A stretch of DNA of 36,578 nucleotides, taken from Anoxybacteroides tepidamans. Its GTDB lineage: Bacteria; Bacillota; Bacilli; Bacillales; Anoxybacillaceae. Where the stretch lies: assembly GCF_014201465.1 (NCBI RefSeq), contig NZ_JACHEP010000028.1, forward strand, positions 1 through 36,578. Direction: 5' to 3'. Below are positions 5,800 through 19,250 of this stretch, piece by piece. The translations under genes and the position numbers were made by a program. Below the pieces are notes generated by a model. The model ran no database searches. It saw only the letters and a list, made by a program, of their open reading frames with translations, and was not told where the DNA came from. The first letter of the stretch is position 1, and each line of letters opens with the position of its first letter.

Positions 5800-6903
5800 A
5801 TGGAAAAAGTAGAAACAGTGCTTGCGCAAATCGGAAATCGAAGCGAGAAAGTGACAGGGACGGTTAATCCGCCTGTTTATTTTTCAACGGCTTATCGCCA
5901 TGAAGGAATTGGACAGTCGACAGGGTTTGATTATATCCGTACCGGAAATCCAACGCGGAAAATCGTCGAAGAAGCGATTGCCAAACTCGAAGGCGGAGAC
6001 CAAGGGTATGCGTTTAGCTCGGGCATGGCGGCGATTCAAACGGTATTGGCGCTGTTTGAAAGCGGCGATGAGTTTTTAGTGTCCGCCGATCTTTACGGTG
6101 GTACATATCGGCTTTTTGAAAAAGGATGGAGAAAGTACGGATTGTCGTTTCATTATGTCGATTTTCGCGACATATCATTAGTGGAGAAATCGATTACAGA
6201 AAAAACGAAAGCGATTTTTCTGGAAACGCCGACGAACCCGCTTATGCAAGAAACAGACATTCGCGAAGTAGCCCAGCTTGCCAAGCGGTACGGACTGGTT
6301 CTCATTGTTGACAATACGTTTTATACGCCGGTCATCCAGCGCCCGATTGAACAAGGGGCGGATATTGTGATTCATAGCGCGACGAAATATTTAGGCGGCC
6401 ATAACGACGTGCTAGCCGGTTTAGTCGTTGCCAAGGGCGAGGAGCTTTGTCAACGGCTGGCGGAATATCATAATGCGATCGGCGCAGTGTTGTCGCCGTT
6501 TGATTCGTGGCTGTTAATCCGCGGAATGAAGACATTGGCCTTACGGATGAGACAGCATGAAGAAAACGCGCGGCGCATTAGCGAATTTTTAGCTTCTCAT
6601 GAAGATGTGACGGACGTATTGTATCCGGGGCGAGGCGGAATGCTATCGTTTCGCGTGCGCGAAGAACGATGGGTGAATCGCTTTTTACAAAGCTTACAAA
6701 TCATTACGTTCGCCGAAAGTTTAGGTGGGGTGGAAAGCTTTATTACGTATCCTGCGACGCAAACCCATGCCGACATTCCAGAAGAAATTCGCATCGCCAA
6801 CGGTGTCTGTAACCGCCTGCTACGCTTTTCGGTCGGCATTGAGCATGTCGAAGATTTAATTGCTGATTTGTCGCAAGCCTTGGAAAAAATGAAAGAGGTG
6901 TGA
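5800..6903 (+). CDS. metI: Cystathionine gamma-synthase / O-acetylhomoserine thiolyase (MetI)
   Basis: This is a 367-residue PLP-dependent enzyme of the Cys/Met metabolism family that joins an activated homoserine ester with cysteine (or sulfide) on the path to methionine. The PLP-binding lysine is Lys196 in IHSATKYLGG; SSGMAA near residue 75 binds the cofactor phosphate, and YIRTGNPT near residue 46 is the family substrate and PLP motif. The length fits B. subtilis MetI (about 370). It lies directly after the S-box leader and four bases before metC, so the two are one transcript controlled by SAM. Confidence 0.92.
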   Translation: MEKVETVLAQIGNRSEKVTGTVNPPVYFSTAYRHEGIGQSTGFDYIRTGNPTRKIVEEAIAKLEGGDQGYAFSSGMAAIQTVLALFESGDEFLVSADLYGGTYRLFEKGWRKYGLSFHYVDFRDISLVEKSITEKTKAIFLETPTNPLMQETDIREVAQLAKRYGLVLIVDNTFYTPVIQRPIEQGADIVIHSATKYLGGHNDVLAGLVVAKGEELCQRLAEYHNAIGAVLSPFDSWLLIRGMKTLALRMRQHEENARRISEFLASHEDVTDVLYPGRGGMLSFRVREERWVNRFLQSLQIITFAESLGGVESFITYPATQTHADIPEEIRIANGVCNRLLRFSVGIEHVEDLIADLSQALEKMKEV

Positions 6904-6907
6904 CGAA

Positions 6908-8086
6908 ATGGAAAAATCGTTTTCGTTTCAAACAAATTTATTGCATAACAAATGGAAAATCGATGAGCAGACGGGAGCTGTCAGTGTGCCGATCCAGCAT
7001 GCGTCGACGTTTCATCAAGCCGATTTTGATGAGTTCGGAAAATATGATTATAGCCGCTCCGGCAATCCGACGCGGGAAGCTCTGGAAGAGACAATTGCCG
7101 AACTGGAAGGAGGAGTGAGAGGGTTTGCTTTTTCTTCCGGTATGGCGGCGATTTCAACAGCGTTTTTGCTTTTGTCAAAAGGCGATCACGTTCTTGTGAC
7201 CGAAGATGTGTACGGCGGCACGTACCGGATGATTACGGAAGTATTAAGCCGTTTTGGCATTGAATACACGTTTGTCGATATGACCGATTTGCATGAAGTC
7301 GCTTCGCATATTCGCCCGAATACGAAAGTGATTTATGTGGAAACGCCATCGAATCCGCTGTTAAAAATTACCGATATTCACGGCATTGTGAAGCTGGCGA
7401 AAGCGAACGGTTGTTTAACGTTTTTAGACAACACATTTATGACACCGACCTTGCAGCGTCCGCTTGATTTAGGTGTCGATGTCGTGTTGCATAGCGCGAC
7501 AAAATTTTTATCAGGGCATAGCGATGTTGTGGCGGGGCTTGCGGTCGTGAAAGACAAAGAGCTTGCCGATCAGTTGTATAAATTGCAAAATGCGTTCGGC
7601 GCGGTGTTGGGCGTGCAAGATGCGTGGCTTGTGCTGCGCGGTTTAAAGACGCTTCACGTCCGCCTTGAGCAATCGGCCCAATCAGCGCTTAAAATCGCCC
7701 AATTTTTAGCGAACCATCCGAAAGTTGAGGAAGTGTATTATCCGGGGCTTTCGGATCATCCGGGCCATTCGATTCACCGGTATCAAGCGTCCGGGTTTGG
7801 CGCGGTGTTGTCATTTCGCTTAGCAGATGAAGAAGCGGTTCGCACGTTTGTGCAGCATGTGAAAATTCCGGTATTTGCGGTCAGTTTAGGGGCGGTCGAG
7901 TCAATTTTGTCATATCCGGCGAAAATGTCGCATGCGGCGATGCCGAAAGAAGAAAGAGAGAAGCGGGGAATTACCGACGGCTTGTTGCGCTTAAGCGTCG
8001 GGCTAGAAGCAGCGGATGATTTAATTGCCGACTTTGACAAAGCGCTTTCTTATGTCAAGACAAGGCCGGAAGCTGTTTCGCGATAA
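6908..8086 (+). CDS. metC: Cystathionine beta-lyase (MetC)
   Basis: This is a 392-residue PLP enzyme that cleaves cystathionine to homocysteine, pyruvate and ammonia, the step after MetI. The PLP lysine is Lys199 (LHSATKFLSGHSD), with SRSGNPTR near residue 50 and SSGMAA near residue 77. It starts four bases after metI stops, with AGAGGTG as binding site inside the metI end, so translation is probably coupled. It shares strong similarity with its neighbour, as expected of paralogues from an old tandem duplication. A strong terminator follows directly. Confidence 0.92.
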   Translation: MEKSFSFQTNLLHNKWKIDEQTGAVSVPIQHASTFHQADFDEFGKYDYSRSGNPTREALEETIAELEGGVRGFAFSSGMAAISTAFLLLSKGDHVLVTEDVYGGTYRMITEVLSRFGIEYTFVDMTDLHEVASHIRPNTKVIYVETPSNPLLKITDIHGIVKLAKANGCLTFLDNTFMTPTLQRPLDLGVDVVLHSATKFLSGHSDVVAGLAVVKDKELADQLYKLQNAFGAVLGVQDAWLVLRGLKTLHVRLEQSAQSALKIAQFLANHPKVEEVYYPGLSDHPGHSIHRYQASGFGAVLSFRLADEEAVRTFVQHVKIPVFAVSLGAVESILSYPAKMSHAAMPKEEREKRGITDGLLRLSVGLEAADDLIADFDKALSYVKTRPEAVSR

Positions 8087-9937: not shown

Positions 9938-10010
9938 GATTCCGTAGCTCAGCTGGGAGAGCGCTACCTTGACAGGGTAGAGGTCGCTGGTTCGAGCCCA
10001 GTCGGAATCA
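9938..10010 (+). tRNA. tRNA-Val, anticodon GAC
   Basis: The cloverleaf is complete: acceptor arm GATTCCG/CGGAATC, D arm GCTC/GAGC, anticodon arm CTACC-TTGACAG-GGTAG with anticodon GAC at 9971-9973 (reads GUC/GUU, valine), and T arm GCTGG-TTCGAGC-CCAGT. The discriminator base is A at 10010. The 3' CCA is not encoded (TCG follows), so it must be added afterwards. The gene stands alone between a consensus promoter and a terminator. Confidence 0.93.
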
Positions 10011-18894: not shown

Positions 18895-18938
18895 ATATAT
18901 ACGTTTTAACAGAAACATAGCTATGTTAAAGTTAGATG

Positions 18939-19198
18939 TGTATTTGCTAATTGAATTTTGAGCCACTCCGATTACATCCTTGTGAGCCACTTAAAAATTG
19001 ACAAATGGTAAATCTGGGGCGTCTTGACATGGAGCCTCTAGAGGCATGATTTCACTCGAAAGGCGACACATCAAGGTGTTTCGATAGGCAGCAAGCCTAT
19101 CATGCCTCTCACTCCATATCAAGACGGTGTTTTCGCAGGAAATGGAGTGGCTCACGTTTTTACGAGCGAAGTGGCTCAATTTTATGTTAGCAAAAACA
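18939..19198. mobile_element. 260-bp non-autonomous element with IS21-like ends (MITE-like)
   Basis: The two ends are inverted copies of one design: TGT(A/T)TTTGCTAA, eight variable bases, TTGAGCCACT, then 14 bases, then GTGAGCCACT. The spacing between the two GAGCCACT boxes is identical (24-base period) at both ends, which is the arrangement of IS21-family transposase-binding repeats, and the outer bases are TG...CA as in that family. The flanks are GATG on both sides (18935-18938 and 19199-19202), a likely 4-bp target duplication. There is no transposase inside. The interior is strongly folded (see the feature at 19020-19126). It sits in the leader of a small decayed gene. Confidence 0.75.
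19020..19126. repeat. Nested inverted repeats forming a three-way junction inside the 260-bp element
   Basis: CGTCTTGACATGGAG (19020-19034) pairs with CTCCATATCAAGACG (19112-19126), one mismatch. Inside, AGAGGCATGAT (19040-19050) pairs with ATCATGCCTCT (19099-19109), and within that two side hairpins are possible: TCGAAA/TTTCGA (19056-19061 with 19079-19084) and ATAGGC/GCCTAT (19084-19089 with 19095-19100). The result is a long stem closing two small hairpins, in DNA or RNA. Confidence 0.75.
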
Positions 19199-19250
19199 GA
19201 TGTTGATTTCTTATGGTTTTTATTAAACGGTTATTATCAAAGGTGATCTG

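Follow-up and report, generated by a model that had tools for sequence, protein, structure and literature searches.

Promoters that act on single-stranded DNA are already known. The Frpo (or ssi, single-strand initiation) sequences of conjugative plasmids adopt a fold on which RNA polymerase can start from single-stranded DNA, and they precede leading-region genes of conjugative elements (PMC11541004; this and the other papers are cited from partial texts). The single-strand origins (sso) of rolling-circle plasmids and of ICEBs1 are structured and act as one strand, and many of them prime the second strand by way of RNA polymerase (PMC4595007). Inverted repeats of IS5 type near a plasmid sso alter host range (PMC12016507) and are distinct from the module described below. 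Here, a stretch of 36,578 nucleotides (nt) from Anoxybacteroides tepidamans was analysed (contig NZ_JACHEP010000028.1, positions 1 to 36,578; in the following, the window), in which positions 18939-19198 hold a miniature inverted-repeat transposable element (MITE) with ends of the type seen in the insertion sequence (IS) family IS21. Its folded core represents a widespread module, and on the sequence evidence this module is probably, though far from securely, a single-stranded-DNA promoter of the Frpo or sso kind that would prime the second strand of transposon circles.

The likeness to Frpo and ssi is one of fold and promoter design: as described for Frpo (PMC11541004), the folded single strand would imitate a duplex promoter with -35 and -10 elements for the host RNA polymerase. 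The module, of about 105 nt, is however found in insertion sequences and MITEs and not before leading-region genes. By analogy with the sso (PMC4595007), the core is structured and would act as one strand, but sso reside on replicons and the core on insertion sequences. With IS21-family MITEs the element shares TG...CA ends, repeated end boxes, short duplications and the lack of genes, whereas its core also occurs in ISL3-like MITEs and together with IS256, IS3 and IS110 genes. Other conserved non-coding structures of insertion sequences are the bridge RNA of IS110 and the omega RNA of IS200/IS605, each belonging to one family, whose enzyme it guides. The core is likewise a conserved non-coding structure carried by insertion sequences, but it accompanies unrelated enzymes. 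The loops of the IS110 bridge RNA match its target and donor; those of the core, judged by eye, hardly differ between copies at different targets. Small structured mobile repeats are also familiar in Bacillales from the bcr1 repeats of the Bacillus cereus group.

In PMC9333248 the step from the figure-eight to the double-stranded circle is left to the host, and the partial text names no cis site for it. A shared priming module, if real, would make this step testable and would explain the circulation of 200-bp MITEs. Single-strand promoters in insertion sequences, common to unrelated families and kept in MITEs of 200-300 bp, were not found described in searches of open-licence papers, and to our knowledge no non-coding component that unrelated IS families exchange has been reported. 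More tentatively, we propose that at least five unrelated IS families may share a horizontally exchanged, non-coding single-strand initiator, a folded-DNA promoter for host RNA polymerase, that would make their circles double-stranded, so that copy-out-paste-in elements, and tiny MITEs especially, would carry their own priming site.

The 260-bp element and its folded core

A preliminary description, made from the letters of the window, had proposed a non-autonomous element in which each end has an IS21-like pair of boxes at a distance of 24 bases, together with TG...CA termini, GATG duplications and a folded interior. All these features are present in the sequence, and the element is an IS21-type mobile MITE that contains no gene. 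It is no lone copy, as the 260-bp query has eight matches in its own genome: six are full length with 98-100% identity, one is 255 bp long with 96% identity, and one (L008) stops at query position 174, at a contig end. The copies keep their ends. Exact target duplications of 4-5 bp, differing in sequence (GATG, AAAGT, GAAAA and AATGT), flank four of the six full copies; one of the remaining two has a 3-bp duplication and the other no clear one. A ninth core in the same genome (G000:C31:15227-15334, 109.8 bits) lies apart from the eight matches.

As to an IS21 element with the same ends, sister MITEs and the window's own type differ. Within the bacterial family, core-carrying MITEs of three end types (F3, F7 and F8) have their ends in common with istB-bearing elements, but no istA/istB element with exactly the ends of the window's copy (type F1) was found in the genomes compared. 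A true IS21 istB was not found with the PF01695 profile in the genome itself, where the best match reaches 58.9 bits versus up to 383.6 bits in relatives.

The features are as follows, R1 being a covariance model built from 12 cores, the window's included:

18935-18938, no strand: target duplication GATG, left (sequence)
18939-19198, no strand: IS21-like MITE, 260 bp (eight own-genome matches, differing duplications)
18959-18967, plus: left end box 1, TGAGCCACT (sequence)
18983-18991, plus: left end box 2, TGAGCCACT (sequence)
19021-19125, minus: conserved core module, the minus strand presumably being the one that folds (109 bits with R1, the core being among its 12 builders; covariation, wobble)
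19021-19034, plus: P1 arm, which forms the 3' (template) side when the minus strand folds (fold)
19024-19029, minus: partner of the -35 element on the template arm, TGTCAA on the minus strand (near invariant among aligned cores)
19035-19039, minus: internal loop, CCTCT on plus and AGAGG on minus (fold, alignment)
19040-19050, plus: P2 arm (fold, covariation)
19056-19061, plus: P3 arm, variable hairpin (fold)
19079-19084, plus: P3 partner arm (fold)
19086-19089, plus: P4 arm, small hairpin (fold)
19094-19099, minus: -10-like hexamer TAGGCT (aligned cores)
19095-19098, plus: P4 partner arm, AGGC on minus, -11 to -8 (fold, aligned cores)
19099-19109, plus: P2 partner arm (fold, covariation)
19101-19102, minus: extended -10 TG (aligned cores)
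19112-19125, plus: P1 partner arm, which forms the 5' (nontemplate) side when the minus strand folds (fold)
19117-19122, minus: -35-like hexamer TTGATA (aligned cores)
19146-19154, minus: right end inner box, TGAGCCACT, in the plus-strand reading AGTGGCTCA (sequence)
19170-19178, minus: right end outer box, TGAGCCACT, in the plus-strand reading AGTGGCTCA (sequence)
19199-19202, no strand: target duplication GATG, right (sequence)

The core consists of two stems that close two hairpins. P1 has 14 bp, 13 of them Watson-Crick and one a C.A on the plus strand, equal to G.T on the minus strand, and P2 has 11 bp. Folded as RNA, the full 260 nt gave z = -7.8, and none of 200 shuffles was equally stable; as single-stranded DNA the core gave z = -6.9 for the minus strand and -6.7 for the plus strand. 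The 12 cores fold similarly, into a 14-bp P1, an internal loop with unequal sides (5 and 2 nt), an 11-bp P2 and two hairpins, and L041 and L042 deviate in the interior in single-sequence folds. In their alignment, A1, 86% of the cells pair, and 15 of the 35 pairs are changed on both sides. Double-changed cells number 46 versus 18.5 in shuffles, of which none in 500 reached 46, and the covariation score of 0.319 fell to 0.144 or less when the partners were slid by 1-3 columns. Among divergent cores, P2 has 153 double-changed cells, where shuffles gave 34 on average and at most 49, counted in the 53 of 57 cores with at least 7 of the 11 standard P2 pairs, four being dropped. By these comparisons of aligned sequences the stems covary, as the preliminary description had asked of them.

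The folding strand and its promoter-like bases

The two strands differ in their wobble pairs. Counted over P1 and P2 in the minus-strand reading, G.T cells number 67 and A.C cells 16 in the 57 model-found cores; in 131 pattern-found cores, whose P1 is partly fixed by the search pattern, the counts are 172 and 36. A cruciform would be expected to show no wobble bias, and from the excess of G.T we infer that the minus strand folds, as RNA or as single-stranded DNA. RNA from the plus strand had been the first choice and was dropped on these counts.

The 57 cores (46 model hits and 12 of A1, less one duplicate) carry on the 5' arm of the minus strand mostly TT[TG]A[CT]A and, 17 bp further on, mostly TA[GA][CG]CT, directly preceded by TGn. 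The best spacing of the -35 and -10 elements was 17 in 46 cores, 16 in six, 18 in four and 15 in one, and the TG of an extended -10 is present in 54. The 47 cores that align at the 17-bp spacing were compared base by base, ten being dropped. T-7 occurs in all 47 rows, although it lies outside the modelled stems, the two TG bases in 46 and 45, and a purine at -16 in all; neither T-7 nor TG played a part in the selection of these rows. Position -9 is split between C (24) and G (23). On the nontemplate side T occupies the third position of the -35 element (-33) in 31 of the 47 rows and the fifth (-31) in 17, while the arm facing them keeps C and G, respectively, in 45 rows each.

Sigma-70 touches the template strand at -33 and -31 through its residues E585 and R584, and at -12, -11 and -7 harm comes from nontemplate changes only, position -12 being read as duplex and -11 to -7 as a single nontemplate strand (PMC2613000). 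The modelled P2 duplex ends at -12 and P4 starts at -11. The -35 and -10 elements are predicted to sit in the duplex of the folded single strand, as in Frpo-like promoters. If both hairpin arms meet the polymerase, mismatches that keep the contacted template base are explained, which an ordinary double-stranded promoter fails to do. The contacts are those of sigma-70, and the same behaviour is assumed for the sigma-A of Bacillus.

When single-stranded, the minus strand of the core would form a duplex mimicking a sigma-A promoter. Its 5' arm would give the nontemplate -35, TGn and -10 bases and its 3' arm the template bases, with the end of the P2 duplex falling between -12 and -11. Once bound, RNA polymerase would begin a short RNA with the junction and P3, both 5' of the 3' arm, as its template, and this RNA would prime the plus strand of the transposon circle, to the presumed benefit of transposition. 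A copy-out-paste-in element would need such a site if its circle has a single-stranded stage, and the need would be greatest for a MITE of 200-300 bp, where ordinary lagging-strand priming would rarely start. In 13 cases adjacent to IS256 or IS3 genes, the predicted RNA never enters the start of the gene: in 10 it is antisense and reads into the 3' end, and in 3 it leads away from the gene. A primer fits this better than a transposase promoter, which is unsupported in these cases. A double-stranded promoter on the plus strand (TTGACA, 17 bp, TGATTT) was rejected as well, since the A at -11 is absent and G stands there in 43 of the 47 rows.

Carriers and distribution of the core

The core is a cross-family module, and the view of the preliminary description that it belongs to this IS21 derivative is not supported. 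Its carriers were called by transposase for IS256, IS3 and IS110 and by ends for the IS21-like and ISL3-like classes. Named cores were classified leniently, by regular expressions and short blastn at E 0.01, with 13 MITEs and one IS256 case (L192) set by hand. One-end labels given to Bacillus testis cores were rejected, as these cores by eye adjoin IS3 orfA, and therefore only cases with both ends or an adjacent gene were relied on. Among the matches listed, 61 of 118 cores in 116 named stretches belong to these classes: 34 IS21-like and 12 ISL3-like with both ends, seven IS256, seven IS3 and one IS3-like with both ends.

The ISL3-like MITEs (ends GGCTCTTCG..., 8-bp duplications; L190, L203, L207, L223, L259 and others) are a class defined by ends and duplications only. 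Their first bases GGCTCTTC and the 8-bp duplications agree with the elements around ISL3 transposase genes of the family, which start with GGCTCTTCA, GGTTCATCA or GGGTCTTCA and frequently have 8-bp duplications. A transposase gene with the ends of these MITEs was not found among the ISL3-transposase loci of the family. In 25 such loci the sole core match was partial (L318: 45 bits, 62 bases) and lay outside the element, so the core was rejected as a part of ISL3 elements; an ISL3 transposase lies 235 bp from the core of L224. As a regular part of complete IS21 elements it was likewise rejected, for want of a convincing R1 match inside the istA/istB elements of L058-L087 and L108-L127. Cores that do occur at istA/istB loci belong to MITEs, some of which sit within the genes or next to them (L088, L089, L119), or adjoin an istB fragment (L083). 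In L122 (G007:C27, 1544-1649, minus strand) a weak core-like match of 33 bits, 172 bp beyond istB, may represent what is left of a core within or next to an IS21 element.

Of 53 reading frames at -20 to +130 bp from a core, 30 were profiled, and six IS256 and seven IS3 transposases were identified; in all 13 cases the core sits beyond the 3' end of the gene. The IS256-family element of L235 is 1457 bp long, has an 8-bp duplication and a partial transposase frame of 233 amino acids (aa), and carries the core 57 bp from its right end, while the IS256 transposase of L195 is full length (416 aa, profile positions 2-336 of 338). IS110 transposases lie upstream of the core at 265 bp (L197) and 269 bp (L268). 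On plasmid pNe-1 only 24 bp separate the core from the 3' end of a gene that the record labels IS3 transposase. All five carrier families (IS21-like, ISL3-like, IS256, IS3, IS110) are among the eight copy-out-paste-in families listed by PMC9333248, namely IS1, IS3, IS21, IS30, IS256, IS110, ISLre2 and ISL3. In L197 (Alicyclobacillus sp. ALC3), two identical inverted cores, separated by about 1.7 kb, enclose an aminotransferase gene next to the IS110 gene, an arrangement that resembles a compound transposon.

Of 397 genomes from the order, 146, representing 81 of 135 genera, have the core by R1 (E<=0.001), and the model gives a handle on the elements that carry it there. In a sample over the phylum it matched 27 of 398 genomes and 24 of 267 genera (E<=0.0001), the 27 including the genome studied here and some others of its order. 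Within the genus, query part 85-194 has matches of about 72% identity elsewhere; these are MITEs with other ends, with 7-bp duplications in three copies (by eye), whose core stems show compensating differences. Of 41 genomes in the family, 24 match the core, some across the first 29 bases only, with about eight kinds of surrounding ends, and one core (L049) adjoins what reads as an IS3 gene. A pattern scan of named genomes found at least 116 stretches with a core; those listed include Bacillus, Paenibacillus, Brevibacillus, Alicyclobacillus, Kurthia, Lachnospiraceae, Moorella, Desulfoscipio and Clostridium. A search with one core matched nine plasmid records and no phage or E. coli record; a second core had no plasmid match. 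One matching plasmid bears the label Aeromonas, on the word of its record only. The core pattern is also present in four viral contigs.

A recombinant MITE (L017/L098, G006:C5) combines a left end of the window's type with a core and right end of TGTAAATTAGC type, and no duplication was seen around it. Ends and cores therefore recombine. In L099 (G004:C169, reverse complement about 5802-7444) a MITE core is interrupted at the P2/P1 boundary by a 1643-bp insertion with an 8-bp duplication, CCTCTCAC, and a 422-aa frame that by eye resembles an IS66-type transposase. The own-genome copy L008 ends, with its contig, at the same core position, and given both cases the core may be a preferred insertion site. 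The frame flanking the MITE of L018/L099 contains ...SRYIHLNPVEA, which we take to be typical of Y1/RAYT-type transposases; the MITE seems to be inserted in such a gene.

Weighing of the explanations

Several points weigh against a single-strand promoter for transposon circles. R1 has no match to the sso of pTA1060 or pTA1040, the best score being 5.4 bits, unfiltered; the core may work like an sso, yet it would not be counted in these families. The promoter counts are partly circular, as T-12 and A-11 helped to select the 47 rows and the spacing was picked for each sequence by the best -10 score. The bases at -10 to -8 are far from TATAAT, and -17 is T in 14 of the 47 rows and C in 33, where the TRTG motif of Gram-positive bacteria wants T. 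The main structural difficulty is that P4 pairs -11 to -8 and must open. In A1 further pair types are unexceptional, being matched by 60 of 500 shuffles, and the core rows compared include close relatives. PMC9333248 has semi-conservative replication primed by the flanking 3'-OH, and the single-stranded stage of the circle is one that we ourselves infer.

The distribution adds to these points. Among the matches listed, 27 of the 118 named cores match at one end only and 30 are unassigned, and exclusivity to copy-out-paste-in families therefore does not follow. An IS4 fragment (L189, at a contig edge) and an IS1182 fragment (L268) lie directly downstream of cores on the plus strand, and another IS1182 fragment is 308 bp from the core of L254. 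The core of L268 has the IS1182 fragment on one side and an IS110 transposase on the other. The fragments in L189 and L268 may be due to a MITE or IS110 context. IS1, IS30 and ISLre2 carriers were not seen, no search having been aimed at them. The complete IS21 and ISL3 elements inspected have no core. Relatives without it were also common when one IS256 and two IS3 carriers were compared by blastn with plasmids: at about 63-69% identity, the core was lacking in all 30 rows listed of 61 records and all 25 listed of 203, and in a second set of 21 records 13 lacked it, seven matched the core alone and one was the query. Exact empty sites were not found in this comparison, the relatives being too distant for a precise junction. 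The core is therefore not essential but an optional passenger.

With these points in the balance, the priming of transposon circles by a single-strand promoter is still preferred to the other explanations. It is unlikely, though not to be dismissed, that the core is a structured RNA from the minus strand, be it a transposon-borne small RNA or a 6S-like decoy for RNA polymerase. The wobble asymmetry suits RNA as well as single-stranded DNA, and the minus-strand core lies sense-downstream of the transposase gene in seven of seven IS3 and three of six IS256 cases. The orientation is however mixed in IS256, the window's core has no match in Rfam (18900-19240 gave none at E<=5), and near-invariant -35 template bases, TGn and T-7 at a 17-bp spacing would be pointless save as promoter mimicry. 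A single-stranded promoter might instead serve the entry of DNA by conjugation or transformation, the role that Frpo has on conjugative plasmids (PMC11541004), and two of the nine matching plasmid records are typed conjugative. We consider this improbable, as most of the copies studied belong to insertion sequences and MITEs, and in none of the 13 IS256/IS3 cases does a transposase gene come after the predicted start.

There is little probability that the core is an independent mobile hairpin inserting into transposons. Its many backgrounds and the carrier relatives that lack it would agree with such a hairpin, but its boundary is not fixed, the outermost P1 pairs both varying and covarying, and the recombinant MITE L017 shows that ends and core are exchanged; that no empty and filled pair was found counts weakly, there being no relatives close enough to compare. 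A transcription terminator or insulator for transposons, to which a stable palindrome past the transposase 3' end in all 13 IS256/IS3-adjacent cases would be suited, is very improbable: in the sequences that were read the edges of the core showed no U-tract, no terminator scan having been made, the conservation exceeds what a terminator needs, and the core has a three-way junction. The evidence is more in favour of a folded, promoter-like single DNA strand than of the terminator, processing site or attachment structure that the preliminary description had suggested. Its other suggestion, a palindromic filler, preserved merely by the copying of recent MITEs, has next to no probability; the full-length copies of the own genome are indeed 98-100% alike, but compensatory changes occur among divergent cores in several IS families. 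The suggestion of a core with a job of its own is supported.

Elsewhere in the window lie a SAM riboswitch (RF00162, 5612-5720, 100.9 bits) and a tRNA (9938-10010), which the Rfam search of the window at gathering thresholds found.
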